This document shows positions 6,987-62,492 of a DNA stretch of 64,000 nucleotides, in pieces. The notes beneath the pieces were generated by a model. It made no database searches. It had not been told where the DNA came from and saw nothing but the letters and a program-made list of their open reading frames with translations. Each line of letters starts with the position of its first letter. Position 1 is the stretch's first letter. Source of the DNA: an uncultured Glaciecola sp. (GTDB taxonomy: Bacteria > Pseudomonadota > Gammaproteobacteria > Enterobacterales > Alteromonadaceae); NCBI GenBank assembly GCA_937125395.1, contig CAKZLI010000055.1, positions 62,001 through 126,000 of the forward strand, in the 5' to 3' direction. The position numbers and the translations under genes are program-made.

Positions 6987-8540
6987 TTATCGGCTACCCG
7001 GAACGATATGCCTGTTTAATATCCGGCGTGCGTCTTTTTTTACTTCCGGGCGTTTTTTGAATGCCCATAGCCGATCTCTTGCCGCACTTGCGCAGGCTTC
7101 TATATCAACAATGGGCTCGGGATAATTATTGGATGGTAATGCAAATAACTGCTGTTCCATGGGCGAGACAAGCCATGGAGTATGTACCATATCATCCGGA
7201 AACTCAGCCAGTTCATGTACCCAACGCTTAATAAAGACACCTTGCGGATCCCGTTCTTGCGATTGCTTAATCGGGTTGTATAAGCGAATGGTGTTAGTCC
7301 CCGTTACTCCAGCTTGCATTTGAAATTGTGGATAGTGGATACCAGGCTCAAAATCTAAAAATAACGATGCCATGTGATGGACACCTAATCGCCAATCCAA
7401 GTTTAAATGATGTGCGAGGACACTGACTAACATCGCCCGCATTCTAAAATTAATATACCCCGTGGCAATTAACGCGCGCATATTAGCATCGACAATTGGG
7501 ATCCCCGTCATTCCGGTTTTCCAAGCAGATAAGCGTTGGCTTACCACCTCAGGATCTGATTCATAATGGTAGGCGTCATAGGCAATGTTTAAGTGTCGAT
7601 ATTCCATCGCACATTCACTTTCAAATTTTTGAATAAAGTGGCAATGCCAATGTAGACGTGATGCCATGGCGGTAAACGCCCGTCGCCAACTTAAATAAGC
7701 TTCAGTTAACGCCAAGCTATCTAATTTTTGATAGGTTTGTTTAATCGTAATATTACCCCAAGCAATATACGGCGATAAGCGAGAACAACTGTGACGTGAC
7801 AACGAAGGACTCGATATATGCTTGGCGTAATTTTTACCTCGTTTATTTAAAAATGAGTAATAGGTATGCCATGCACGCTTTTCTCCGCCAAGCTGTAACT
7901 GCTTATCAACTTCTTGCCATTGCGGATCAAGTGCTAGGCACTGTTGTTGTTCGATAGCAGTGTTAGTTTGTGCATGTAATTCGGTTAACAATGCTCTAGA
8001 AATAAATGGAATACACGATAAATCTGCATCTGCACAAGGCAAATCAATTACCTCATGCCAATATCGACCCCAATCTTTTCGATGGGTTAACCCGCGACGT
8101 ACTACCGAGTAGGGGAATTCAATCCAACGGATTGACGCATTCGGGCCTGCTTGAATGTCAGTATCAATGTTTGCGTTGTTGTTACACCACTGTGCGAGTG
8201 CTTTGTCACGGCGATAGGTGACATCAAGACCGATTTCTTCGTGACTGTATATATGCATGATTGTAAATTGAGATTGTATCAACGTCAGCGCAGTAAAAAT
8301 ATCAGCGTGCATGATCACAATCTCAGTTGCATAGTCTTGTAGTTGCAATTGTAAATCTTGCAAAGACTGATACACAAAACGCCAGTGACGTAATGAATAA
8401 TGCGGATCAGCAATTACATCTGGCTCAAAGACATACAACAATAATACGGGGCGTGGATTGTGTTGTACCTGTACTAGAGGGAGATGGTCACGTAACCGTA
8501 AATCACGTTTAAACCATACAACATCAATCGCTTGTGGCAT
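6987..8540 (-). CDS. Cryptochrome/photolyase family protein, atypical clade
   Basis: N-term DVVWFKRDLRLRDHLPL; FAD domain with GIPIVDANMRALIATGYINFRMRAMLVS; divergent YPQFQMQAGVTG in place of GWQWAAS. Confidence 0.85.
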   Translation of the reverse strand: MPQAIDVVWFKRDLRLRDHLPLVQVQHNPRPVLLLYVFEPDVIADPHYSLRHWRFVYQSLQDLQLQLQDYATEIVIMHADIFTALTLIQSQFTIMHIYSHEEIGLDVTYRRDKALAQWCNNNANIDTDIQAGPNASIRWIEFPYSVVRRGLTHRKDWGRYWHEVIDLPCADADLSCIPFISRALLTELHAQTNTAIEQQQCLALDPQWQEVDKQLQLGGEKRAWHTYYSFLNKRGKNYAKHISSPSLSRHSCSRLSPYIAWGNITIKQTYQKLDSLALTEAYLSWRRAFTAMASRLHWHCHFIQKFESECAMEYRHLNIAYDAYHYESDPEVVSQRLSAWKTGMTGIPIVDANMRALIATGYINFRMRAMLVSVLAHHLNLDWRLGVHHMASLFLDFEPGIHYPQFQMQAGVTGTNTIRLYNPIKQSQERDPQGVFIKRWVHELAEFPDDMVHTPWLVSPMEQQLFALPSNNYPEPIVDIEACASAARDRLWAFKKRPEVKKDARRILNRHIVPGSR

Positions 8541-9834
8541 AGCTCAACCAATTATTAATGAATACGTGGTTTGGATCATAGGTTTGGGTTTGCTTAGCTA
8601 GGTTAAAACGTCTTAGCCCTCTAGGATCCGATCCCACACCTGCCAAATATTGCCAATTTCCCCAGTTACTCGCTGGGTCAAAATCAATTAACATTTGTTC
8701 AAAATAAGCTGCACCGTATTGCCAATCTAAGCCTAATTCATGTACCAAACAGCTAGCAACTAATTGTCGACCTCGGTTGGACATAAAACCCGTGTGTGCT
8801 AGTTGTAACATACACGCATTCACAATTGGATAATCCGTTGTACCTGCTACCCAACTCGCAAACATCTCTGGGTTGTGTTTACCGGTCGGTGTTTTATGTT
8901 GGATCCCGTTTTTATGATAAATTTTGGCTTGATATTTTAACTGCTGCCATTGATAGAATTCACGCCACAACAATTCAAAAAACAACCAATACGTTGAATC
9001 ATTGTGACCATGTGCAGCTTCATACTGACAAATGGCAGCATTGACTTCACCCGCAGAGATGCAGCCACTAGCTAACCATGCTGATAATTTACTCGAAAAA
9101 TCCCAACCATCTAAGCCATTGCGCGTGATTTTGTATTCGCTTAATGCATGTGTATCGAAACTGTAATAGTGCAACTGCTGAGCAGCAAAGGTCGCACCAC
9201 CGATAAGGCGCCCTGATATCAAATCATCGCCGACAGCAGGTTGAACTGGTGGGAGCGTCGTAGAAATTAATTCACCAGCCAATTCAGAACACAGCGCAGG
9301 GGGTAATGATGCTAACGCATTGTCCTTGGCAAGGGTTTCTCTTGGTGGAGCATGTTGTTCTACTTTTCGTCTAAATGGAGAAAACACATCCGGTAATTGA
9401 TCAATGTCCATGGGTAACTGTTCAATACCATATAGTGTATAGCTATTTGCTTGTGAAAAATCACATTGATCACACTGTGTTTGCAATGCATGCCACTGAC
9501 GTTGCTCATACACCCCAGTATGGTAGTGTTTAGCGATATGTGTGAATGCATGTTGTTGATGTAAATCAGCAATAATACTGACAGGATCACCATAATAAAT
9601 ATGTAATATTTGACCTTGTTGAGCCAATTGATTGCTCAAATCGGTTAATGCTTCACGAATAAAACGATAGCGGTGCTTGCCCATATGCACCATACCGAAG
9701 GCGTTTTTGCTGAACCATTGAGGTTGAAAAATATACACGCAATGGAGAGCTTCAACCTGTTGAGCGATGGCAGACAATGCTGCATTGTTACTCAAGCGTA
9801 AATCATGCTCAAACCAGTATAAACCTCGTGTCAT
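8524..9834 (-). CDS. Cryptochrome DASH family protein
   Basis: GLYWFEHDLRLSNNAAL; DFDPASNWGNWQYLAGVGSDPRG is DASH-like; 17-bp overlap with downstream photolyase-family gene. Confidence 0.85.
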   Translation of the reverse strand: MTRGLYWFEHDLRLSNNAALSAIAQQVEALHCVYIFQPQWFSKNAFGMVHMGKHRYRFIREALTDLSNQLAQQGQILHIYYGDPVSIIADLHQQHAFTHIAKHYHTGVYEQRQWHALQTQCDQCDFSQANSYTLYGIEQLPMDIDQLPDVFSPFRRKVEQHAPPRETLAKDNALASLPPALCSELAGELISTTLPPVQPAVGDDLISGRLIGGATFAAQQLHYYSFDTHALSEYKITRNGLDGWDFSSKLSAWLASGCISAGEVNAAICQYEAAHGHNDSTYWLFFELLWREFYQWQQLKYQAKIYHKNGIQHKTPTGKHNPEMFASWVAGTTDYPIVNACMLQLAHTGFMSNRGRQLVASCLVHELGLDWQYGAAYFEQMLIDFDPASNWGNWQYLAGVGSDPRGLRRFNLAKQTQTYDPNHVFINNWLSYATSD

Positions 9835-14964: not shown

Positions 14965-16011
14965 TTAACCTGAATTGACTAATGCCATGTCACGTAATGT
15001 CTTAACTTGATCTAAGCGAGATTTTGCTAAATCAAAAAAGATTTGGATCTCTTCAAGCGTATTGGGCGTTTGCGTAATGTAACCAGACGAAACAGAGACA
15101 AAAGGTGATACCGGCGAAATATCATGTGGCATTAGCGCTTGCACAATAAACTTATTAATCAATGCTATTTTTTGTTTTGCGCCTATTTCGTTACATCCTG
15201 GTAATAAAATATAAAAATCATCTCGCCTTGAGCGAACCACCATGTCATCCTGACGGTAAATGATCGAATGGAATATACTCATCATGACTCGGATATAGTG
15301 ATATACAGTGTCATTGCCGGAGTGCGCCTTTAATAACTGAAAGTAATCAATGTTCAGCGCAATCAAAGTCACCGGTTCATTTGCGCGAATACATTCAATC
15401 CACGATTTTGATAGATGTTGCATAAAATATTGAAAATCTTGTTGTGCAATTGAGTCGTCGAGCATAAAGGGGTGGGTATTTAATCGAGCTGGTTTCCGAT
15501 CAGATAGATCCGCTTCGATGCGCTGGATCATATGTTTGGTAGAAATCGGCTTTAGTACCACATCCATGTTGTGATTAGGCATTTGTTCAATATACCGCTG
15601 TAGGGTTTCCATCATAGAGATCACAAAAATAAATGGAATATAGTCATACGGTAAATCACTGAGTAAGGTATTGATATCAATATAGCTTTCTCTGATTGGG
15701 ATCATGTCAATCAAAATCAAATCAAAGGGCTGCTGGTTTTGTTGTGCTTTGAGAAGTGCTTGTTTTGCCGAGTCAGTATTCTTGACACGCTCAATACCGA
15801 ACATGCTTTTTAGTGCAAGGGTTTTTACCTTGTATTGTACTGGGTCATTATCTATTAATAGTAAACGCAATTCCATGTGATAGTTACTCAATCCGTTTGA
15901 ATTTTCATCATTATTATTTGTCCACAGTAACTGTAATCCATTATCTAGATTTTGCCACTCTATCGCATGGTTCTCGCGTAGTTTTTTGAATGGTAAAAAT
16001 AATCTTAACAA
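14965..16011 (-). CDS. Receiver domain plus degenerate GGDEF protein (start may be 15876)
   Basis: LRLLLIDNDPVQYKVK...FDLILIDM receiver; RSRRDDFYILLPG degenerate GGDEF. ORF-track start at 16011 is TTG; ATG at 15876 gives MELRLLLIDND. Confidence 0.75.
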   Translation of the reverse strand: MLRLFLPFKKLRENHAIEWQNLDNGLQLLWTNNNDENSNGLSNYHMELRLLLIDNDPVQYKVKTLALKSMFGIERVKNTDSAKQALLKAQQNQQPFDLILIDMIPIRESYIDINTLLSDLPYDYIPFIFVISMMETLQRYIEQMPNHNMDVVLKPISTKHMIQRIEADLSDRKPARLNTHPFMLDDSIAQQDFQYFMQHLSKSWIECIRANEPVTLIALNIDYFQLLKAHSGNDTVYHYIRVMMSIFHSIIYRQDDMVVRSRRDDFYILLPGCNEIGAKQKIALINKFIVQALMPHDISPVSPFVSVSSGYITQTPNTLEEIQIFFDLAKSRLDQVKTLRDMALVNSG

Positions 16012-18689
16012 TAGTTCGCATTATTAGCGTTAATAAACGAAATAAATGCATCTTGTGGAAGGGGTTTACTAATAATAAATCCTTGATAGGAGGTCACACC
16101 TAAGGCTGATACTGCTTGCCTGACCACATTTGTTTCGACTCCTTCAGCGATTACATTGAGATCAAAAGAATGAGCTAATGCAATAATCGCCTTTACAATT
16201 TTGGTATTGCTAATATGTTTATCCAGATTTTCAATGAACGATTTATCAATTTTGAGGATATGAAAAGGGAATTTTTGTAAATAACTTAATGATGAGTATC
16301 CCGTTCCGAAATCATCCAACGCTAAACGCATGCCCAGATCACATATTTCGTTTAGCATATCAATGACTTTGCTAGTTTTATTAATAATCACCGACTCCGT
16401 TATTTCCATTACTAAATGTTTAGGCTCCACGTGATACTCTTTACATTGTGTTTTGATATGTTGAATTAAATGAGTGTCTAATATCTGCCTAGCGGAGAGG
16501 TTAAATGATATATAGCCATCTTCAGGATAACTTTGGCATTGTTGCCATAATTGTAATTGCTTACAAGTTTCCTTAATGACCCATTGTCCGACTGAGATAA
16601 TCATATTATTTTCTTCCAACAACGGGATAAATCGGTCAGGACTAATCACGTTGTTTTCTTTATCTTTAAAGCGAAGTAAGGCTTCAAAACCAACAAGCGT
16701 GTGTTGTTGTGAGTCAATAATGGGTTGAAAAAATAGATAAAAACGTTGTCGTGCGAGACCCGTGCGTAAATCACTAACGAGATTAATTCGTGATATTGTA
16801 TCGGCTTCTAATGACTTAGAGAAAATTTGATGTTTATTTCGCCCTTCTTTTTTGGCGCTATAAAGTGCAACATCTGCATTTTTTAAGACCGCTTCAGGCG
16901 ACGAATCTTTATCACTACCTTGAGCAATACCGAGGCTGGTTGTAACAAAAATCTCATTACCATCAATCATAAACGGCTTAGCAATCCACTCAATTAGTTT
17001 ATTTGCTATAGTGACAATTTCTGGAAGTTGTTCATCATGTCCCAGCATCACCACAAACTCATCTCCGCCAAACCGTGCGATCGTATCGTTTTTTCTTAAG
17101 ACATTTAGTAATCTAGTGGCTACGTCTTGGAGTAACATATCACCAATATTATGGCCAAGATTGTCATTAACATCTTTAAACCCATCTAGATCTAAAAAAA
17201 ACACAGTAACAATAGAATTGTGCCGGCTCGATTCATTAAACGCCTGTTGTAAACGGTCAGTAAATAGCATCCTATTTGCTAAGCCAGTCAAGCTGTCATA
17301 CTGCGCCATGTGTTTAAGTTTTTCTTGATTGATGTATCGTTCAGTAATATCGTGACATGTACCCAAAAACCCATCAATTCGACCGTCTTGGTCGAATAAT
17401 ACCCGTATGCTCATATCTATCCATTTAGTTGTTCCTTGCGTATTGATAAATCGGACTTCTTTAAACAGATCTATTCCTTCTTGTAGACTATTCCTTAACG
17501 TAAATAATAGTTCATCGACGTCTTCAGGATGAATAGCATTGATCCAATATCTACCCATACTATCTTCTTCACTAATCCCTGATAATTCAGACCATTTGTT
17601 ATTGGCAAACACACATTCCCAATCTGCGGTGACATGGATAATTCCCACTGGGGTAAGTTGATTTAAGGCATTAAGGTGTTGTGAAGTCCGTTTATATTTT
17701 TCAGTACTCTCTTTAATTGATGTAACGTCTTCAATTTGTAAGGTTGTGAATCGTTGAGTGCCGTGTGTGTAACGAAAAACAGTTAAGTTCACAATGCACA
17801 TTTTTCCATCTTTACGATAGGCAGATACATTGCTAATGAGTCTTGGTCGTTGGCTGTTGACATCAATATCAAGCCTACTGGGTTGATTTGACCACTTAAA
17901 GAACTCTTCATAATTAGGAAAAAAATCATGAATGTTAAATCCTGCCAGTGACATTAAATCTTTACTGCATTCGATTACCGAATCAGGAAAAAAAATGTCT
18001 TGTGCTGCTGGATTACTCAATAAAATTGAGGTGTCTGAATTTACAACAATTATTGCAATCGGAGATGACGAAATTAAACTACTTAAATACCTATTGTCTG
18101 CAATTTGTTGATCTAAACCCCAAAAATTACCTCGAACAGTCTCTGAGCTTTGCAGTGTACATACAACCGCACCGACGATCGATTTTAGTTTGACTAGAGC
18201 AGAAGGATGATAATGTTTATGTTTGTTAGCGAGTATGCATATAGCCCGTAACTCAGAATGGAGTATGATCGGTAATATTAAAATAGAATTTATATTTGAA
18301 TCAGGCTTAAGTAATGCCCTTGAGCCTTTTGGTATAGGATCATTATAATAAACAATACTCGATAAAATGTTTTTTTGTCCAATCCAAGACAATAAAACAT
18401 GCTCATTCACAAATTTTGTTGAATCATTTAAATAGATACCCTCGAGTTGCACATCGGGCAAAATCGGAAGTTCTGCATTTTCGCTCGACACATAACAGAC
18501 CCCATAATCACTATCTGTTGTTTGAGAGACGTAACGAAGCAACATATGAAATACTTCTTTTGAGGCATCAGGGTCAAACAATAAATTTTGGATATCTTCA
18601 ATAGCAATACGAGTGGAAGTATCTTTTCGTCTATCTTTGTAAAACGGCACTTGCGAGGCGTTGTGAGGGGTATTTTTTTCTTGTGACAT
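16005..18689 (-). CDS. GAF/PAS-GGDEF-EAL c-di-GMP signalling protein
   Basis: ARFGGDEFVVML intact; GFEALLRF and DDFGTGYSSLSYL; two PAS-like segments. Confidence 0.92.
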   Translation of the reverse strand: MSQEKNTPHNASQVPFYKDRRKDTSTRIAIEDIQNLLFDPDASKEVFHMLLRYVSQTTDSDYGVCYVSSENAELPILPDVQLEGIYLNDSTKFVNEHVLLSWIGQKNILSSIVYYNDPIPKGSRALLKPDSNINSILILPIILHSELRAICILANKHKHYHPSALVKLKSIVGAVVCTLQSSETVRGNFWGLDQQIADNRYLSSLISSSPIAIIVVNSDTSILLSNPAAQDIFFPDSVIECSKDLMSLAGFNIHDFFPNYEEFFKWSNQPSRLDIDVNSQRPRLISNVSAYRKDGKMCIVNLTVFRYTHGTQRFTTLQIEDVTSIKESTEKYKRTSQHLNALNQLTPVGIIHVTADWECVFANNKWSELSGISEEDSMGRYWINAIHPEDVDELLFTLRNSLQEGIDLFKEVRFINTQGTTKWIDMSIRVLFDQDGRIDGFLGTCHDITERYINQEKLKHMAQYDSLTGLANRMLFTDRLQQAFNESSRHNSIVTVFFLDLDGFKDVNDNLGHNIGDMLLQDVATRLLNVLRKNDTIARFGGDEFVVMLGHDEQLPEIVTIANKLIEWIAKPFMIDGNEIFVTTSLGIAQGSDKDSSPEAVLKNADVALYSAKKEGRNKHQIFSKSLEADTISRINLVSDLRTGLARQRFYLFFQPIIDSQQHTLVGFEALLRFKDKENNVISPDRFIPLLEENNMIISVGQWVIKETCKQLQLWQQCQSYPEDGYISFNLSARQILDTHLIQHIKTQCKEYHVEPKHLVMEITESVIINKTSKVIDMLNEICDLGMRLALDDFGTGYSSLSYLQKFPFHILKIDKSFIENLDKHISNTKIVKAIIALAHSFDLNVIAEGVETNVVRQAVSALGVTSYQGFIISKPLPQDAFISFINANNANYC

Positions 18690-18698
18690 TAACGTGAT

Positions 18699-18746
18699 CT
18701 CATTAGCTCATTAGCTCATTAGCTCATTAGCTCATTAGCTCATTAG
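18699..18746. repeat. Six perfect copies of 8-bp tandem repeat CTCATTAG (CTAATGAG on the coding strand)
   Basis: Read directly; ends 9 bp before the start codon of the GGDEF-EAL gene. Confidence 0.97.
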
Positions 18747-18868
18747 TAAGTACATGTGATTTTGATAATATCCGTATTAACCATGTAAGTTTATCAATGC
18801 GTGTTATATTTATAAGTGTATAAGATAAACAACAATACATAATTGTAGACCACTAAGGTGAATCGCAC

Positions 18869-21800
18869 ATGTCGAATCCTTCACAAAACTCAACGCATAA
18901 TTCATCTTTTCATGATAACCCTACACATTTTATTGGTATAGGCGCTTCAGCGGGAGGTTTAGAGGCGTTACAGATGTTATTGCGTGATCTGCCTTGTCAA
19001 ACTGGTGCTTGTTTCATTATCGTTCAACATTTATCACCCGACTTTAAGAGTATGATGCTTGAATTACTGAGTAAGCACACATCGATGCATATAGAAAACG
19101 TAGAAGATGGCGTGTTAACCAAAGCAAATACAATATATCTATTACCGCCTAAGAAAAACCTAATTGTCGCTCAAGGAGAACTTCTCCTCAGCGACAAAGT
19201 ACCTGATTCGGGTTTGAATTTACCCATTGATGTTTTTTTTCGGTCATTAGCTGAAGATCAGCAGCATCGTGCCATTGGCATTATTTTATCTGGTACAGGC
19301 TCTGATGGAAGTCGTGGCTTAAAGTCACTCAAGGAGGCAGGGGCCTTAGTTATTGCACAAGATCCTGATAGTGCCAAATTTGATGGCATGCCTAATTGTG
19401 CGATTAATACCGGTATTGTTGATTTAATTCTTCGTCCAGAAGATATGGGGAAGCAGTTAGCGGATTATATACAACACCCTTTGGTTAGTGGCGAATCATT
19501 GAAGACCCAAGATGACTTGAACTCCAGTAAAGATCTCATGTCTGAGATATTCAATCTGCTGCAAGTGAAAAGCGATATTGATTTTTCTAAATACAAACCT
19601 GCGACCATTACTCGAAGAATAGAGCGTCGTATGACAATCAAGCAAATTACAACATTACAAGCATATCTGACATTGTTGTTTAAAGACCCCTACGAAGTTC
19701 AAGTATTAAGTAAAGAACTATTAATCGGTGTAACACGATTTTTTCGTGATGACGATGCATTCAAATATTTAATCAATGAAGTAATCCCCGTCATTGTCAA
19801 AAATTCGTCTAAAGGTAAGTTAATTAGGGTATGGGTTGCAGCTTGTTCAACGGGAGAGGAAGCTTATTCTATCGCCATTTTGTTACAAAATGAGATTACT
19901 AAACAAAAACTATCTAGAGAAATAAAAATCTTTGCTACCGATGTGAATCCCGATGCAATTGCTGAGGCGAGTGTAGGGTACTTTGGCGCAGAATTGGAAC
20001 ATGATATTCCACCAGATATACTACAGAATCATTTTAGCCCGACAGCAAATGGTGGTTATCAAATATCTCAATCAATCCGTAATAATGTTGTGTTTGCAAC
20101 GCATAATATGATTATTGATCCTCCGTTCTCAAATATTGATTTGGTGACATGTCGCAACGTGTTAATTTATTTTCAACAAAGTTCTCAGAAACGAGTCATT
20201 ACCTCTTTTCATTTTGCATTAAAAAAAGATGGGGTATTATTTTTAGGTTCTTCTGAAAATCTTGGCGATTTGGCAGCGCACTTTAAACCCCTTAACGAAA
20301 GACAAAAAATATTCAGCAAAATTAATGATGTCAAACTACTGATGAATACGAGCCAAAATGTAACGGGTAAAACAAAGAAGGGGTTGTCGAATATTCCTGC
20401 TGTAACTGATTTAATGAAAAACTATACCAACAATATCAAATCTGAAAACGCGTTGACTTTTATTAACGAAGCACTGATCGGTGAATTTGTATCGCCTTGT
20501 GTTATTTTAAATGAACAGTATCAGGCGATGCATGTGTACGGAGACTTAACGCCTTTTGTTAGACGTCTTCCTCCAGGACGTATAAGCACCACTATAACCG
20601 ATTTAGTCAATGACGATATTAGTATCGCAGTATCGTCTGCACTGCAACGAGCTAAATTTAATAACCAAGAAGTCTATTATACTGACATACAAACTAACAT
20701 AGACAATAACTCATGTTTATTTAATTTGCGTGTCAAATACATTCAAGAACATGATTTACCTAATAGTCCTGGTTTTTTTTGGGTTATCTTTGAAAATATC
20801 GAAACGGATACCGACGAATTAGTAGATAAAAACAAAAATAAAATGGTTAAGTTTGATGTCAGTCAACAAGTTAAACAACGAGTTGAAGACTTAGAACTTG
20901 AATTAAAAATTAACAAAGAACATTTACAGATTACTATTGAAGAGTTAGAAACAACCAACGAAGAACTTCAATCATCCAATGAGGAATTGATGTCAGCAAA
21001 TGAGGAGTTGCAAAGTACCAATGAAGAATTGCAATCGGTGAATGAAGAACTGTACACCGTAAATTCTGAATACCAAGAAAAGATTGTTGAAATTTCACAG
21101 GCAAATGGTGATTTAGATGAGGTGCTAGGGTTATCCAAGATTGGCGTTATTTTCTTGGATGAAAATATGCTCATCAGACGCTATACAAAAGCTGTCAAAA
21201 ACTACATTAATTTGCAAGAAAGTGATGTAAATCGTCCACTACATCATATTTCTCAAAAAATAAATTATCCTGATATGTTAGCAGATGTCGCTAACGTATT
21301 TAATACAAGCAATACTATTGAGAAAGAGATTACATTACTGAATAAACAGCTATTAAGAGTATCGATCAACGCCTATTCTTATAACGATGATAATAACACT
21401 GATAGCGTAGCCATTACCTTCTCAGATATATCAAGAACTAGGTATATTGAGCTGAGCATGGTATTGGCATATAAGGAATTACGAAATAGTGTCAGTAATG
21501 CTTTAGAGATGCTAGATAGTAAGTCATTTATTGACACTGTAAACATCTTGATAATTGATGATAATCCAACTTATTTGGCGTTGTTAGAAGAATATTTATT
21601 AAAAATCACTAATTATGAAGTTAATGTTTATCCTAACACCAATATTAATGCCGCGTTAGATGTGTTGAAAAATAATGAAATAGACATTTGTGTGACTGAT
21701 TATTATTTAAAAAACGAAACGGCTATCGACTTAATAAATCAGCTGACAGAGCAGGGGTATGATTTACCTGTAATTGTTATATCTGGTGAATCGACCGAAG

Positions 21801-21964
21801 ATATTACTAGCTTGTTGTTAAATTATGGAGCACTGGATTTGATTGAAAAGGATGACATTACTCCTGCAATCCTTGATCGAAGCATCCGGTATGCAGTGAG
21901 ACGGGGTCAAATTGATGCACACATCAATAACCTGATTGTTGAAAATATGACACTAAATAAATAG
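18869..21964 (+). CDS. CheB-CheR hybrid with coiled coil, PAS and C-terminal receiver domain
   Basis: GIGASAGGLEALQMLL (CheB), RVWVAACSTGEEAYSIAILL (CheR), NEELQS heptads, NILIIDDNPTYLALLEEYL...VTDYYL receiver. Confidence 0.92.
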   Translation: MSNPSQNSTHNSSFHDNPTHFIGIGASAGGLEALQMLLRDLPCQTGACFIIVQHLSPDFKSMMLELLSKHTSMHIENVEDGVLTKANTIYLLPPKKNLIVAQGELLLSDKVPDSGLNLPIDVFFRSLAEDQQHRAIGIILSGTGSDGSRGLKSLKEAGALVIAQDPDSAKFDGMPNCAINTGIVDLILRPEDMGKQLADYIQHPLVSGESLKTQDDLNSSKDLMSEIFNLLQVKSDIDFSKYKPATITRRIERRMTIKQITTLQAYLTLLFKDPYEVQVLSKELLIGVTRFFRDDDAFKYLINEVIPVIVKNSSKGKLIRVWVAACSTGEEAYSIAILLQNEITKQKLSREIKIFATDVNPDAIAEASVGYFGAELEHDIPPDILQNHFSPTANGGYQISQSIRNNVVFATHNMIIDPPFSNIDLVTCRNVLIYFQQSSQKRVITSFHFALKKDGVLFLGSSENLGDLAAHFKPLNERQKIFSKINDVKLLMNTSQNVTGKTKKGLSNIPAVTDLMKNYTNNIKSENALTFINEALIGEFVSPCVILNEQYQAMHVYGDLTPFVRRLPPGRISTTITDLVNDDISIAVSSALQRAKFNNQEVYYTDIQTNIDNNSCLFNLRVKYIQEHDLPNSPGFFWVIFENIETDTDELVDKNKNKMVKFDVSQQVKQRVEDLELELKINKEHLQITIEELETTNEELQSSNEELMSANEELQSTNEELQSVNEELYTVNSEYQEKIVEISQANGDLDEVLGLSKIGVIFLDENMLIRRYTKAVKNYINLQESDVNRPLHHISQKINYPDMLADVANVFNTSNTIEKEITLLNKQLLRVSINAYSYNDDNNTDSVAITFSDISRTRYIELSMVLAYKELRNSVSNALEMLDSKSFIDTVNILIIDDNPTYLALLEEYLLKITNYEVNVYPNTNINAALDVLKNNEIDICVTDYYLKNETAIDLINQLTEQGYDLPVIVISGESTEDITSLLLNYGALDLIEKDDITPAILDRSIRYAVRRGQIDAHINNLIVENMTLNK

Positions 21965-21990: not shown

Positions 21991-22725
21991 GTGAATGAAT
22001 CACAGGTAAAAGCAGTGTTAGTTGCATACGTGCATGATATTAAAGGGTCTTTAGCTAGTAATGCAGCTCTTGCTCAATTAATCATCGATAAACATGCTGC
22101 AGTGCTTGATAAAAAAGCACAAAAATGGCTCAAATTGATGGCGAACGAATATTCTCTAACAGACATAAAACTGTCACGTTTATCACAATATGCCCAATTA
22201 TTTGATTACCAATGCAAGATGAAAACAATTGATATCCAGTCATTGATTGACTGGTGTAAGCTAAAATTAATAGTCGAATATTCGTACCAAATCGATATTC
22301 AAAGTAATTCAATACCTGTCATATTAAGCGATAAGCATTTAATTAAACTTTATTTATATGAGTTAATGTCCAATACATATAAACATGCTTATTCAAGCAC
22401 TCAGATTTCGAATGGTACAGTTGGCATACACAATAATAATGTTGCAAACGAACCGCTAGCAATCAAGATTGAGTATTTTGATACAGCAGAATCACATAAT
22501 ATCCTGTATCAAGATAATGGTAATAGTACTAGTGCCAGCGATTGTGAATACATGCAATTGCCACTAAATACGCTTAAAGATAGTCATGCAAATTTGACAA
22601 GTGCAGGCATGGGCTTTCAGTTTATGCAGCAGATTGCGGATTTGTTGGATGGTACACTGGAAGTTAAAATAGGCACTGTACAAGCAACAGGTGTAACAGT
22701 CTTATTAACATTACCTAAACGGTAG
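21991..22725 (+). CDS. Sensorless histidine kinase-like protein
   Basis: GTG start; H-box-like VHDIKGSL; N-box-like ELMSNTYKHA; GMGFQFMQQIADLLDGTLEV. Confidence 0.7.
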   Translation: MNESQVKAVLVAYVHDIKGSLASNAALAQLIIDKHAAVLDKKAQKWLKLMANEYSLTDIKLSRLSQYAQLFDYQCKMKTIDIQSLIDWCKLKLIVEYSYQIDIQSNSIPVILSDKHLIKLYLYELMSNTYKHAYSSTQISNGTVGIHNNNVANEPLAIKIEYFDTAESHNILYQDNGNSTSASDCEYMQLPLNTLKDSHANLTSAGMGFQFMQQIADLLDGTLEVKIGTVQATGVTVLLTLPKR

Positions 22726-30227: not shown

Positions 30228-31924
30228 TGCAGCTCTCCTTGATCATGCTCTGAGTCCATATCACCCATGTCATCCATATCACCCATGCCATCCATATCAC
30301 CCATGCCATCCATATCGCCCATGCCATCCATATCACCGGTAAAATGCACCGTGTTGATTTGATACATACCAGACAACCCTTCTACAATTTCGACATGAAC
30401 TTGTTCTCCAACTTGAAATTGTTGCATATCAATCTCCGCTGCAACGGTAAAATTCATGGTCATGCCCATCATATTAAAGGCATCAAGTGGCCCGTGTGTG
30501 AGTTTTACGACGCGCTCACTGACCATAACGTCATTGACAGTGGCGTGCGTCCAGGCACTGGTTATTTCGCTATCGTGCATTGCTACATGCGAAGGTGCTT
30601 GCGTCGACGCTTCTATAAGCGATTCCATAGGCGCTTGCATACGCATAAAGTCAGAACTAATACTACTTTCAGAATCAAGTAAGAATTGTGCTGAAATGAC
30701 CACCTCATCTCCTTCTTTTAGTCCTTCAAGTATGGCAAAGCCAAAGTCATACCGTTCGCCAAGCACTACTGCTATGGATTTATACCGACCAGCGCCTAAT
30801 GCGAGTACCACTCGGTCTTGCTGTCCGGTTCTGATCACAGCTTGATGAGGAACCATTATTATTTTGGAGTTAACGAGCTCATCATTGCTATCAGAAGTTA
30901 TAGAAGCGTTGTTATTGCCTATCATTACGTCGGCATACATTTGCGGCTTGAGTAGACCATTTGGATTAGGCACCACAAATCGTGCAGTAACGGTTCGTTT
31001 CATAGCATCTAAATCAGGATATATATAATCAATCTGTGCCTGGGTGATAAGGCCAGGCAAAGCATCATACTTAATACTGGCTGATTGACCGGTCGCTATC
31101 TTCGGCACATCGAAGGTAAAAATATCAGCTAATATCCACACCGTATCTACCGATGCAATCGATAGCATGATTTTATTAGGTGTGACGTAAGTGCCTTCTT
31201 GGATATTAAGTTTGTTAATCACACCACTTTGTGGGGCATAAAAGGTCATCGTACGCGATACTTGGCGCTGTTTGCGCAGCGAGTTTACTAATGCAAGTGG
31301 CGCGTTCAAGGATAACAATCTGGCTTGTGCACCGTTTATCAGTGCTTGATTATTTTGCTCTAGGGCAATCACAAATTCCTCTTGGGCATTGACCAGCTCT
31401 GGTGAATACAACTCATACAAAGGATCACCTTGTTTAATCATGGCGTCTTGATTGCGCGTATAAAGTTTTTCTACCCAGCCAGCCACGCGAGAATGAACAG
31501 ACGAGATCTTATCCTGTGCATACTGTACTTGCCCGAATGTGTTAATAGTATTAACGGTCGAGACTGGTTGGATGATTGTCGTTTTCACCCCCAAGTTTTG
31601 AATGGTAACAGGATCTATCGATATGGTACCTGGCGCACTAGCCTGCGCTTGATTGGCAAAAACAGGCACCAAGTCCATGCCCATCGGCGATTTTCCCGGT
31701 TTGTCACGTTTAAAATTTGGGTCCATTGGCGCCACCCAATACAGTGGTGTATTGTCACTGTCACGGTCATCACTTGCTTGGTGACTATCATGCAGCATCT
31801 CATGAGATGTGTGCGGCGATAATACATAATATACAGTAAGACTCAAACATATCCCGAGCACTGCCCCTAAGAGTAAACTAACAGTCGCATTTTTCTTATC
31901 TGATTTAGGCAATATATTATTCAT
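30224..31924 (-). CDS. cusB: RND periplasmic adaptor CusB-like with C-terminal CusF-like domain and Asp/Met-rich tail
   Basis: YWVAPMDPNFKRDKPGKSPMGMDLVPV heavy-metal-binding segment; FNMMGMTMNFTV CusF-like; (GDMDGM)n tail. Confidence 0.9.
   Translation of the reverse strand: MNNILPKSDKKNATVSLLLGAVLGICLSLTVYYVLSPHTSHEMLHDSHQASDDRDSDNTPLYWVAPMDPNFKRDKPGKSPMGMDLVPVFANQAQASAPGTISIDPVTIQNLGVKTTIIQPVSTVNTINTFGQVQYAQDKISSVHSRVAGWVEKLYTRNQDAMIKQGDPLYELYSPELVNAQEEFVIALEQNNQALINGAQARLLSLNAPLALVNSLRKQRQVSRTMTFYAPQSGVINKLNIQEGTYVTPNKIMLSIASVDTVWILADIFTFDVPKIATGQSASIKYDALPGLITQAQIDYIYPDLDAMKRTVTARFVVPNPNGLLKPQMYADVMIGNNNASITSDSNDELVNSKIIMVPHQAVIRTGQQDRVVLALGAGRYKSIAVVLGERYDFGFAILEGLKEGDEVVISAQFLLDSESSISSDFMRMQAPMESLIEASTQAPSHVAMHDSEITSAWTHATVNDVMVSERVVKLTHGPLDAFNMMGMTMNFTVAAEIDMQQFQVGEQVHVEIVEGLSGMYQINTVHFTGDMDGMGDMDGMGDMDGMGDMDDMGDMDSEHDQGELQ
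30256..30337. repeat. 18-bp tandem repeat (about 4.5 copies) encoding GMGDMD repeats in CusB tail
   Basis: CCATATCACCCATGCCAT units with 1-nt variants. Confidence 0.93.
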
Positions 31925-53467: not shown

Positions 53468-54370
53468 ATGAAGATTGGACTCGCTTTAGGCGCTGGAGCA
53501 GCGCGAGGATGGACGCATCTAGGCATTATTGAACGCTTGGAAGCATTGGGTATCAAAATTGATATTGTCACCGGCTGTTCTATTGGTGCTTATGTCGGTG
53601 CGGCTTATGCATCCGGTAACTTGAGCAAATTAAAAGAATGGGCGTTTGATCTGAGTGAATGGCAAGTACTGAGATTGCTTGGTATTGGGATTTCTCGTGG
53701 TGGTCTAGCCAGCGGTCAGCAAGTATTTCAGTTATTAGAAGATGAATTTTCAGCCACGCATTTTGCAGATATGAGATTACCTTTTGCTGTCACCGCTTCT
53801 GATTTGTATTCGGGCCGAGAGGTCGTTTTTCAAGAAGGTCGTGTTGTAGATGCTGTTAGAGCGTCCTGTGCTATTCCAGCATTATTTGCACCTGTATATC
53901 ATGAAGGTCGATGGTTAGTCGATGGTGCCGTTGTTAACCCTGTTCCGGTTAATTTATGCCGACGATTGGGTGCAGACTTCGTGATTGCTGTGAATCTAAG
54001 CGCTGATTTTAGACCTGAGATGCTGGACCGACATTCTGTGGCCCATATCAAAGCGCAACAAAAAACCGACAATTTACTTGCCGATAATCAAAGTTTATTT
54101 AAAAGCTGGTTTTCTCCGGATCCCAAAGACGATGAACCGACTCCTCCAGGGATCATGAGTGTGATGAGTAATAGTCTAGATATTATGCAAGCCCGCGTAA
54201 CCCGTTCTCGATTAGCGGGTGATCCAGCTGATATTTTGATCGAACCACATTTACGCGATATTGGGCTACTCGAATTTGAGAAGGCTCAAGCACTTTATGC
54301 AGCAGGGGCTGAAGCCGTAGACCGATTAGAACAACAAATTTTGTATCAGTTAAACTACATCGACAGTTAA
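53468..54370 (+). CDS. rssA: Patatin-like phospholipase (RssA-like)
   Basis: GAGAARGWTHLGIIE; GCSIGAYVGAAYASG; VDGAVVNPVPV. Confidence 0.85.
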   Translation: MKIGLALGAGAARGWTHLGIIERLEALGIKIDIVTGCSIGAYVGAAYASGNLSKLKEWAFDLSEWQVLRLLGIGISRGGLASGQQVFQLLEDEFSATHFADMRLPFAVTASDLYSGREVVFQEGRVVDAVRASCAIPALFAPVYHEGRWLVDGAVVNPVPVNLCRRLGADFVIAVNLSADFRPEMLDRHSVAHIKAQQKTDNLLADNQSLFKSWFSPDPKDDEPTPPGIMSVMSNSLDIMQARVTRSRLAGDPADILIEPHLRDIGLLEFEKAQALYAAGAEAVDRLEQQILYQLNYIDS

Positions 54371-54383
54371 ACTACATCGACAG
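54350..54383. repeat. 17-bp tandem duplication over the rssA stop codon
   Basis: TTAAACTACATCGACAG x2. Confidence 0.9.
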
Positions 54384-54397
54384 TTGAGCACTCTGCC

Positions 54398-61823: not shown

Positions 61824-62492
61824 ATGAATAGAGATACCGTTTACGCTCAGTCGTCTCAAGCATCGGTACTTGAAACTAACAAGGTATTACGTAATACCTA
61901 TATGCTGTTATCAATGACATTAGCCTTTAGTGCATTTTGTGCTGGATTAGCGATGTTTATTGGTATTAGTCCTATGATGTCATTAGGTATGACGTTAGCC
62001 GCGTTTGTAATGTTGTTCGTTGTAAACAAGAAAGCAGATACTGCATCGGGTGTATATTGGGTCTTTGCTTTCACTGGTTTACTCGGTGGCGCACTAGGAC
62101 CAATGCTCAGTTATTATGTTGGCATAGCCAATGGTCCAGGTTTAATAATGCAAGCATTAGGCGGTACCGCCATTATCTTTTTTGCACTTTCTGGTTATGT
62201 ATTAACCACCAAAAAAGATTTTAGCTTTATGGGCGGTTTTTTGATGGTCGGTTTATTGGTTGTTGTGATTGCCGCTATCGCTAACTTGTTTTTTGCAGTA
62301 CCTGCTGTTTCTTTAGCCATTAGTGCTGCCATTATTTTTATCATGTCAGGTCTGATTTTGTTTGATACAAGTCGTATCATCCATGGCGGCGAAACAAACT
62401 ATGTGCGCGCTACAGTGTCCATGTATTTAAACCTGTATAACTTATTTACTTCCCTACTTCACCTTTTAGGTGTGTTTGGTAGTGACGATTAA
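61824..62492 (+). CDS. yccA: Bax inhibitor-1/YccA family protein
   Basis: VLRNTYMLLSMTLAFSAFCAGLAM; LYLNLYNLFTSLLHLLGVFGSDD. Confidence 0.93.
   Translation: MNRDTVYAQSSQASVLETNKVLRNTYMLLSMTLAFSAFCAGLAMFIGISPMMSLGMTLAAFVMLFVVNKKADTASGVYWVFAFTGLLGGALGPMLSYYVGIANGPGLIMQALGGTAIIFFALSGYVLTTKKDFSFMGGFLMVGLLVVVIAAIANLFFAVPAVSLAISAAIIFIMSGLILFDTSRIIHGGETNYVRATVSMYLNLYNLFTSLLHLLGVFGSDD

Follow-up and report, generated by a model that had tools for sequence, protein, structure and literature searches.

A perfect octamer repeat in the probable leader of a PAS-GGDEF-EAL gene of an uncultured Glaciecola sp.

The subject of this study is a perfect tandem octamer found immediately upstream of a PAS-GGDEF-EAL gene in an uncultured Glaciecola sp. 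(assembly GCA_937125395.1, contig CAKZLI010000055.1). The stretch analyzed, referred to as the window, comprises the 64,000 nucleotides from positions 62,001 to 126,000 of this contig. Among the closest described systems, an octanucleotide of H. influenzae is present in 1–6 units between the divergent genes cmkB and pdxS, and repeats are also found in the hmw promoters (PMC2651432). In M. catarrhalis, the expression of uspA2 depends on the copy number of AGAT repeats in its 5′-untranslated region (UTR), as described in PMC4679880. In marine Beggiatoaceae, TAACTGA heptamers form 169 direct-repeat sets, most of which are forward to a start (PMC4679880). The repeat and the gene of this study are as follows.

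18699..18746, minus strand: perfect tandem octamer array, (CTAATGAG)x6, identified by direct reading, Tandem Repeats Finder (TRF) and a contig repeat scan.
16005..18689, minus strand: PAS-GGDEF-EAL gene, 894 amino acid residues (Pfam EAL 3e-70, GGDEF 4e-45, PAS 3e-19).

On the minus strand, the array runs from 18746 to 18699 with a period of 8, 6.0 copies and 100% matches by TRF. An earlier note on this DNA had described six exact units with an ATG in each, a repeat of the slippage-prone kind and a GGDEF-EAL gene downstream, and all three points were supported by direct reading, TRF and the Pfam matches, respectively. The sixth unit is followed by ATCACGTT-A-ATG. The whole junction reads ATCACGTTAATG, and its last ATG is the gene start at 18689-18687, 9 nt past the end of the array. 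The repeat is therefore outside the coding sequence and frame-neutral, as had been claimed, and would lie in the leader of a weak predicted promoter. A search for two units with at most three mismatches returned 5 matches versus 0.81 expected, and none of 100 shuffles reached 5, so that the array is a perfect short tandem repeat clearly above chance. Moreover, it is the sole array of the CTAATGAG unit in the 3.26-Mb genome, with no two-unit matches outside it. In the 244 kb of its own contig that served, taken as stretches, as the repeat background, it is also the sole perfect tract of period 4–11 with more than 3 copies. Its edges are sharp and none of its units is mutated, which suggests recent turnover.

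The GGDEF and EAL motifs of the 894-residue product are intact, so the protein may make or degrade cyclic di-GMP (c-di-GMP). Its assumed start at 18689 is reasonable, as a plausible ATG gives the ortholog in genome G124 an N-terminus of similar length. The gene shares a divergent region of 179 nt with a CheBR-type gene, and 122 nt separate the start of the latter from the far end of the array. The neighboring genes are listed below, and the receiver-GGDEF gene is probably co-transcribed with the PAS-GGDEF-EAL gene.

18869..21964, plus strand: divergent CheB-CheR-PAS-receiver fusion, 1031 amino acid residues (open reading frame [ORF] and domain search).
21991-22725: HATPase protein, after the CheBR-type gene.
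14965..15918, minus strand: receiver-GGDEF gene, downstream of the PAS-GGDEF-EAL gene; coordinates as in the scanned stretch, with a TTG start at 16011 according to the ORF tool.

The PAS-GGDEF-EAL gene has orthologs in G124, with 54% identity over the N-terminal half, and in G062, with 37%; both genomes belong to another genus of the family. Adjacent to them were divergent ORF pairs of 1025 and 239 residues in G124 and of 1016 and 227 residues in G062, which were matched by size and layout only. The octamer array was absent from the leaders of both orthologs, in which the divergent layout was retained. Within its own genus, no intact ortholog was found, and G006 alone among the genus-mates had traces of the locus. 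In G006 (L037, G006:C28:46000-64000), a deletion at about 8273-9268 fuses the C-terminal portions of the EAL and CheBR genes to each other. The whole intergenic region is gone, and the flanking genes are retained. A scan of genome contigs for the locus of other strains returned only a distant Nitrospira fragment. Given the array-free leaders of G124 and G062 and the deleted locus of G006, the array is, as far as sampled, lineage-specific by sequence comparison.

Similar to the AGAT repeats of uspA2, the heptamers of hmw1A/hmw2A and the octamer of cmkB/pdxS, the array is a perfect noncoding short repeat upstream of a gene, whose copy number alters length but not frame and whose effect could be graded. 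Different from this array, which is presumed to vary, those repeats vary among strains, and effects on expression are reported for uspA2 and hmw. Moreover, the gene of this study encodes a signaling enzyme, whereas uspA2/hmw-type genes are for surface structure. Similar to the TAACTGA sets of Beggiatoaceae, which lie directly 5′ of starts and often lack a Shine-Dalgarno (SD) sequence (PMC4679880), the octamer is a short repeat that contains a stop. Those, however, are many sets of one unit and mostly forward, whereas the octamer here forms a single array and related TAATG octamers are unbiased. In C. difficile, the c-di-GMP turnover genes pdcB and pdcC also undergo stochastic change, but by invertible promoters and not by simple sequence repeats (SSRs) (PMC11868660).

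The explanation that we favor, with a probability of roughly 0.45, is that the array is a lineage-specific SSR, born of and homogenized by slippage, in the probably transcribed leader of the GGDEF-EAL gene, like the SSRs of 5′-UTRs and promoters. Slipped-strand mispairing would create the array in the short divergent region between the CheBR-type and PAS-GGDEF-EAL genes and keep its units homogeneous. Each unit gained or lost would then change the leader by 8 nt and leave the reading frame and the SD-to-ATG spacing as they were. Because frame and spacing would be untouched, any effect would be graded, on mRNA level, stability or translation. The earlier note had suggested that copy number could change promoter/RBS spacing; the SD-to-start spacing would stay the same, since the array stops 9 nt short of the ATG. 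Transcription of the array is plausible given the best, albeit weak, −10-like site just upstream of it.

18765..18793, minus strand: best sigma70-like site, weak, 5′ of the array (TAAACT-17-TATTAT; promoter scan).

This site predicts a transcription start near 18758 and a leader of about 70 nt that holds the whole array. Several results weigh against the favored explanation. The TAAACT-17-TATTAT site is weak, and a stricter promoter scan yields no site. The mean unpaired probability from −15 to +12 stays at 0.65–0.69 across 0–12 copies, as calculated with one folding model at 37°C. Variation in copy number is predicted from the array of one genome of the species. Finally, numerous octamer tracts of related genomes are not close to any gene start and have no obvious role in expression there.

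Other modes of control by the leader were also considered. The pil1 GCAGA repeat of S. gallolyticus offers a parallel, as a leader repeat whose copy number acts by a translation-dependent mechanism (PMC3894217). That repeat, however, forms part of a single leader peptide gene and acts via a terminator, whereas no terminator-like site was found in 18600-18960. Control by a terminator or attenuator was thus rejected, as none was found between repeat and gene. A stable leader RNA structure was rejected as well, because the fold was not more stable than those of shuffles (z 0.13). Self-pairing of the units via AGCU was predicted, along with an openness of the ATG that alternated with odd and even copy number. 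As the size and sign of this alternation vary with the assumed transcript ends, it was left out of the argument.

The sequence of the units also gives rise to a chain of potential mini-ORFs.

18687..18755, minus strand: potential mini-ORF chain, with ATG 18755 (M-Y-L-L-M-S) or 18743 (M-S), ATGs 18735, 18727, 18719 and 18711 (M-S each) and ATG 18703 (M-R-S-R), by direct reading.

Units 1–5 read ATG-AGC-TAA with TAATG overlaps between units. Unit 6 reads ATG-AGA-TCA-CGT-TAA, with a TAA that overlaps the start codon of the gene at 18689. Every junction is therefore TAATG, a −1 stop/start overlap, which is, with −4, one of the two kinds expected for coupling. Direct reading thus verified the description in the earlier note of five M-S mini-ORFs and one M-R-S-R, all TAATG-linked and the last one onto the gene ATG. 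In addition, an ATG at 18755-18753, 5′ of the array, shares the frame of the unit 1 ATG (ATG-TAC-TTA-CTA-ATG-AGC-TAA), so the first mini-ORF may be of six codons, M-Y-L-L-M-S. This chain could serve as a translational rheostat, in which initiation at the mini-ORFs and termination-reinitiation at TAATG would let the unit number tune ribosome delivery or loss by peptidyl-tRNA drop-off. The exact geometry into the gene start and the weak-to-ordinary SD of the gene itself are in line with this explanation, as are reports that coupling is supported by −1 overlaps and depends strongly on distance (PMC10666635) and that the two-codon minigene ATG-act-TAA increases the expression of txe (PMC8708949).

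The geometry, however, is automatic, because any array of period 8 with TAATG puts the next TAA 6 nt after each ATG (8−2=6). Only the final junction, at which a mini-ORF stop falls on the gene ATG, is an additional coincidence. TA precedes the ATG in 21 of 165 sampled genes (13%), and the stop of an upstream mini-ORF overlaps the start in 9 of 106 leader genes (8–9%, the GGDEF-EAL gene included). The latter count is approximate, as the 106 are genes without a close upstream neighbor whose starts were taken as the longest ATG ORFs. Moreover, the SDs at the mini-ORF ATGs are weak: the best anti-SD pairing was −1.9 kcal/mol for units 2–6, which at least matches only ~28% of genes, and +0.8 kcal/mol for unit 1. 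Pairing of the GGDEF-EAL gene was unremarkable (−2.7 kcal/mol; gene median, −3.5 kcal/mol). Minigene mg2 of axe-txe is also an ATG-NNN-TAA upstream of a gene start (PMC8708949). It has an SD as well as demonstrated translation and effect, whereas translation of the mini-ORFs is putative and they are tandem, with the last one overlapping the gene start. Similarly, mycobacterial MIRUs are repeat elements with an ORF that couples to the start of the gene that follows (reviewed in PMC12548453), different from the −1 overlap and the 8-bp unit found here. The separate elements are all precedented, that is, an octamer SSR in a divergent region, stop-bearing repeats before starts, two-codon minigenes, repeat-borne coupled ORFs and phase-variable c-di-GMP genes, and no such combination emerged from the literature searched.

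Arrays of TAATGNNN were searched for in 299 genomes of the family (three units) and in 395 genomes of the order and 369 of the class (four units). These sets partly overlap, and placement covered only the fetched loci, of which there were one or two per genome. A total of 44 TAATG-octamer arrays with at least 3 copies were identified, the CTAATGAG array included. Their unit sequences were diverse, and none was inside an ORF of at least 100 residues. Octamer SSRs thus seem to be a general feature of the order, as slippage tracts in noncoding DNA. When the array of the window was excluded, the ratios of sense to antisense starts nearby were 3:3 within 30 nt, 6:6 within 100 nt and 11:14 within 300 nt. 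Recurrence in sense orientation at gene starts, which would support coupling without defining it, was not observed among the 44 arrays. In the three other sense arrays close to a gene (L068, L103, and L128), the chain ran into the gene start in none. A recurrent regulatory family of TAATG octamers was therefore rejected for lack of orientation bias, and, as far as such small numbers allow, there is no recurrent use of TAATG octamers as sense leaders. With automatic geometry, weak SDs and related arrays showing no preference for sense starts, stop/restart coupling as an evolved device, which the earlier note had entertained, was not supported. Most probably, the chain is an incidental by-product of the repeat sequence. 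A translational rheostat is unlikely, and its full form, hypermutable tandem two-codon minigenes that are TAATG-coupled to each other and to the c-di-GMP enzyme and set by repeat number, is more doubtful still.

The alternative of a neutral slippage tract, in which an octamer microsatellite expanded by chance in a short intergenic region and plays no regulatory part, is nearly as likely as the favored SSR in a leader, although still doubtful by itself. Its strength comes from the TAATG octamers of related genomes, many of them far from any gene start, which occupy varied noncoding positions without orientation bias, and from the existence of orthologs without the array. Moreover, the control pattern GTAATNNN was about as frequent among the family genomes (counted by eye; some arrays match both patterns). 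On the other hand, the array is less than 10 nt from a start codon, repeats of this sort are almost absent from the rest of the contig, the gene is intact and the divergent layout is conserved. An effect at the DNA level, by which the array length would set the distance or topology between divergent promoters or regulator sites and act also on CheBR, or on CheBR instead, is very improbable. The array does lie in the shared region, the divergent layout recurs in another genus and the octamer of H. influenzae has a similar setting (PMC2651432). However, relative to the best promoter candidates, the array lies toward the GGDEF-EAL gene, and it is 122 nt from the CheBR start. In addition, a period of 8 does not keep phase with the DNA helix, and no protein binding the unit is known here.

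Some other repeats were also observed. In G371, the identical unit (TAATGAGC, 4.2 copies) is in an unrelated place, with no sense gene of at least 100 residues downstream of it. Intergenic octamer arrays of 26.9 copies (L081, G111) and 12.5 copies (L075, G195) were present in family members. In L103 (G519) and L128 (G907), TAATG octamers around position 1500 are 10–11 nt 5′ of sense genes. The product of one begins MENKGFTLIELL and was recognized by eye as pilin-like; that of the other begins MALLHIAEPGQS and is presumably HscA-like. Within the window, an 18-bp unit with the consensus TCCATATCACCCATGCCA is repeated 4.6 times at 30255-30337, and a 17-bp repeat, CAGTTAAACTACATCGA, has 2.3 perfect copies at 54347-54385. 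In addition, the contig of the array contains a perfect 12-bp repeat, GTGTTGGTATTA, with 3.25 copies (L091, 1478-1516).

In the literature searched, phase-variable c-di-GMP enzymes are controlled by promoter inversion or epigenetic switching instead of SSRs. A functional mini-ORF chain would amount to a compact and mutable translational dial. If the array is length-variable, an SSR would set the level of a c-di-GMP enzyme in this Glaciecola sp.
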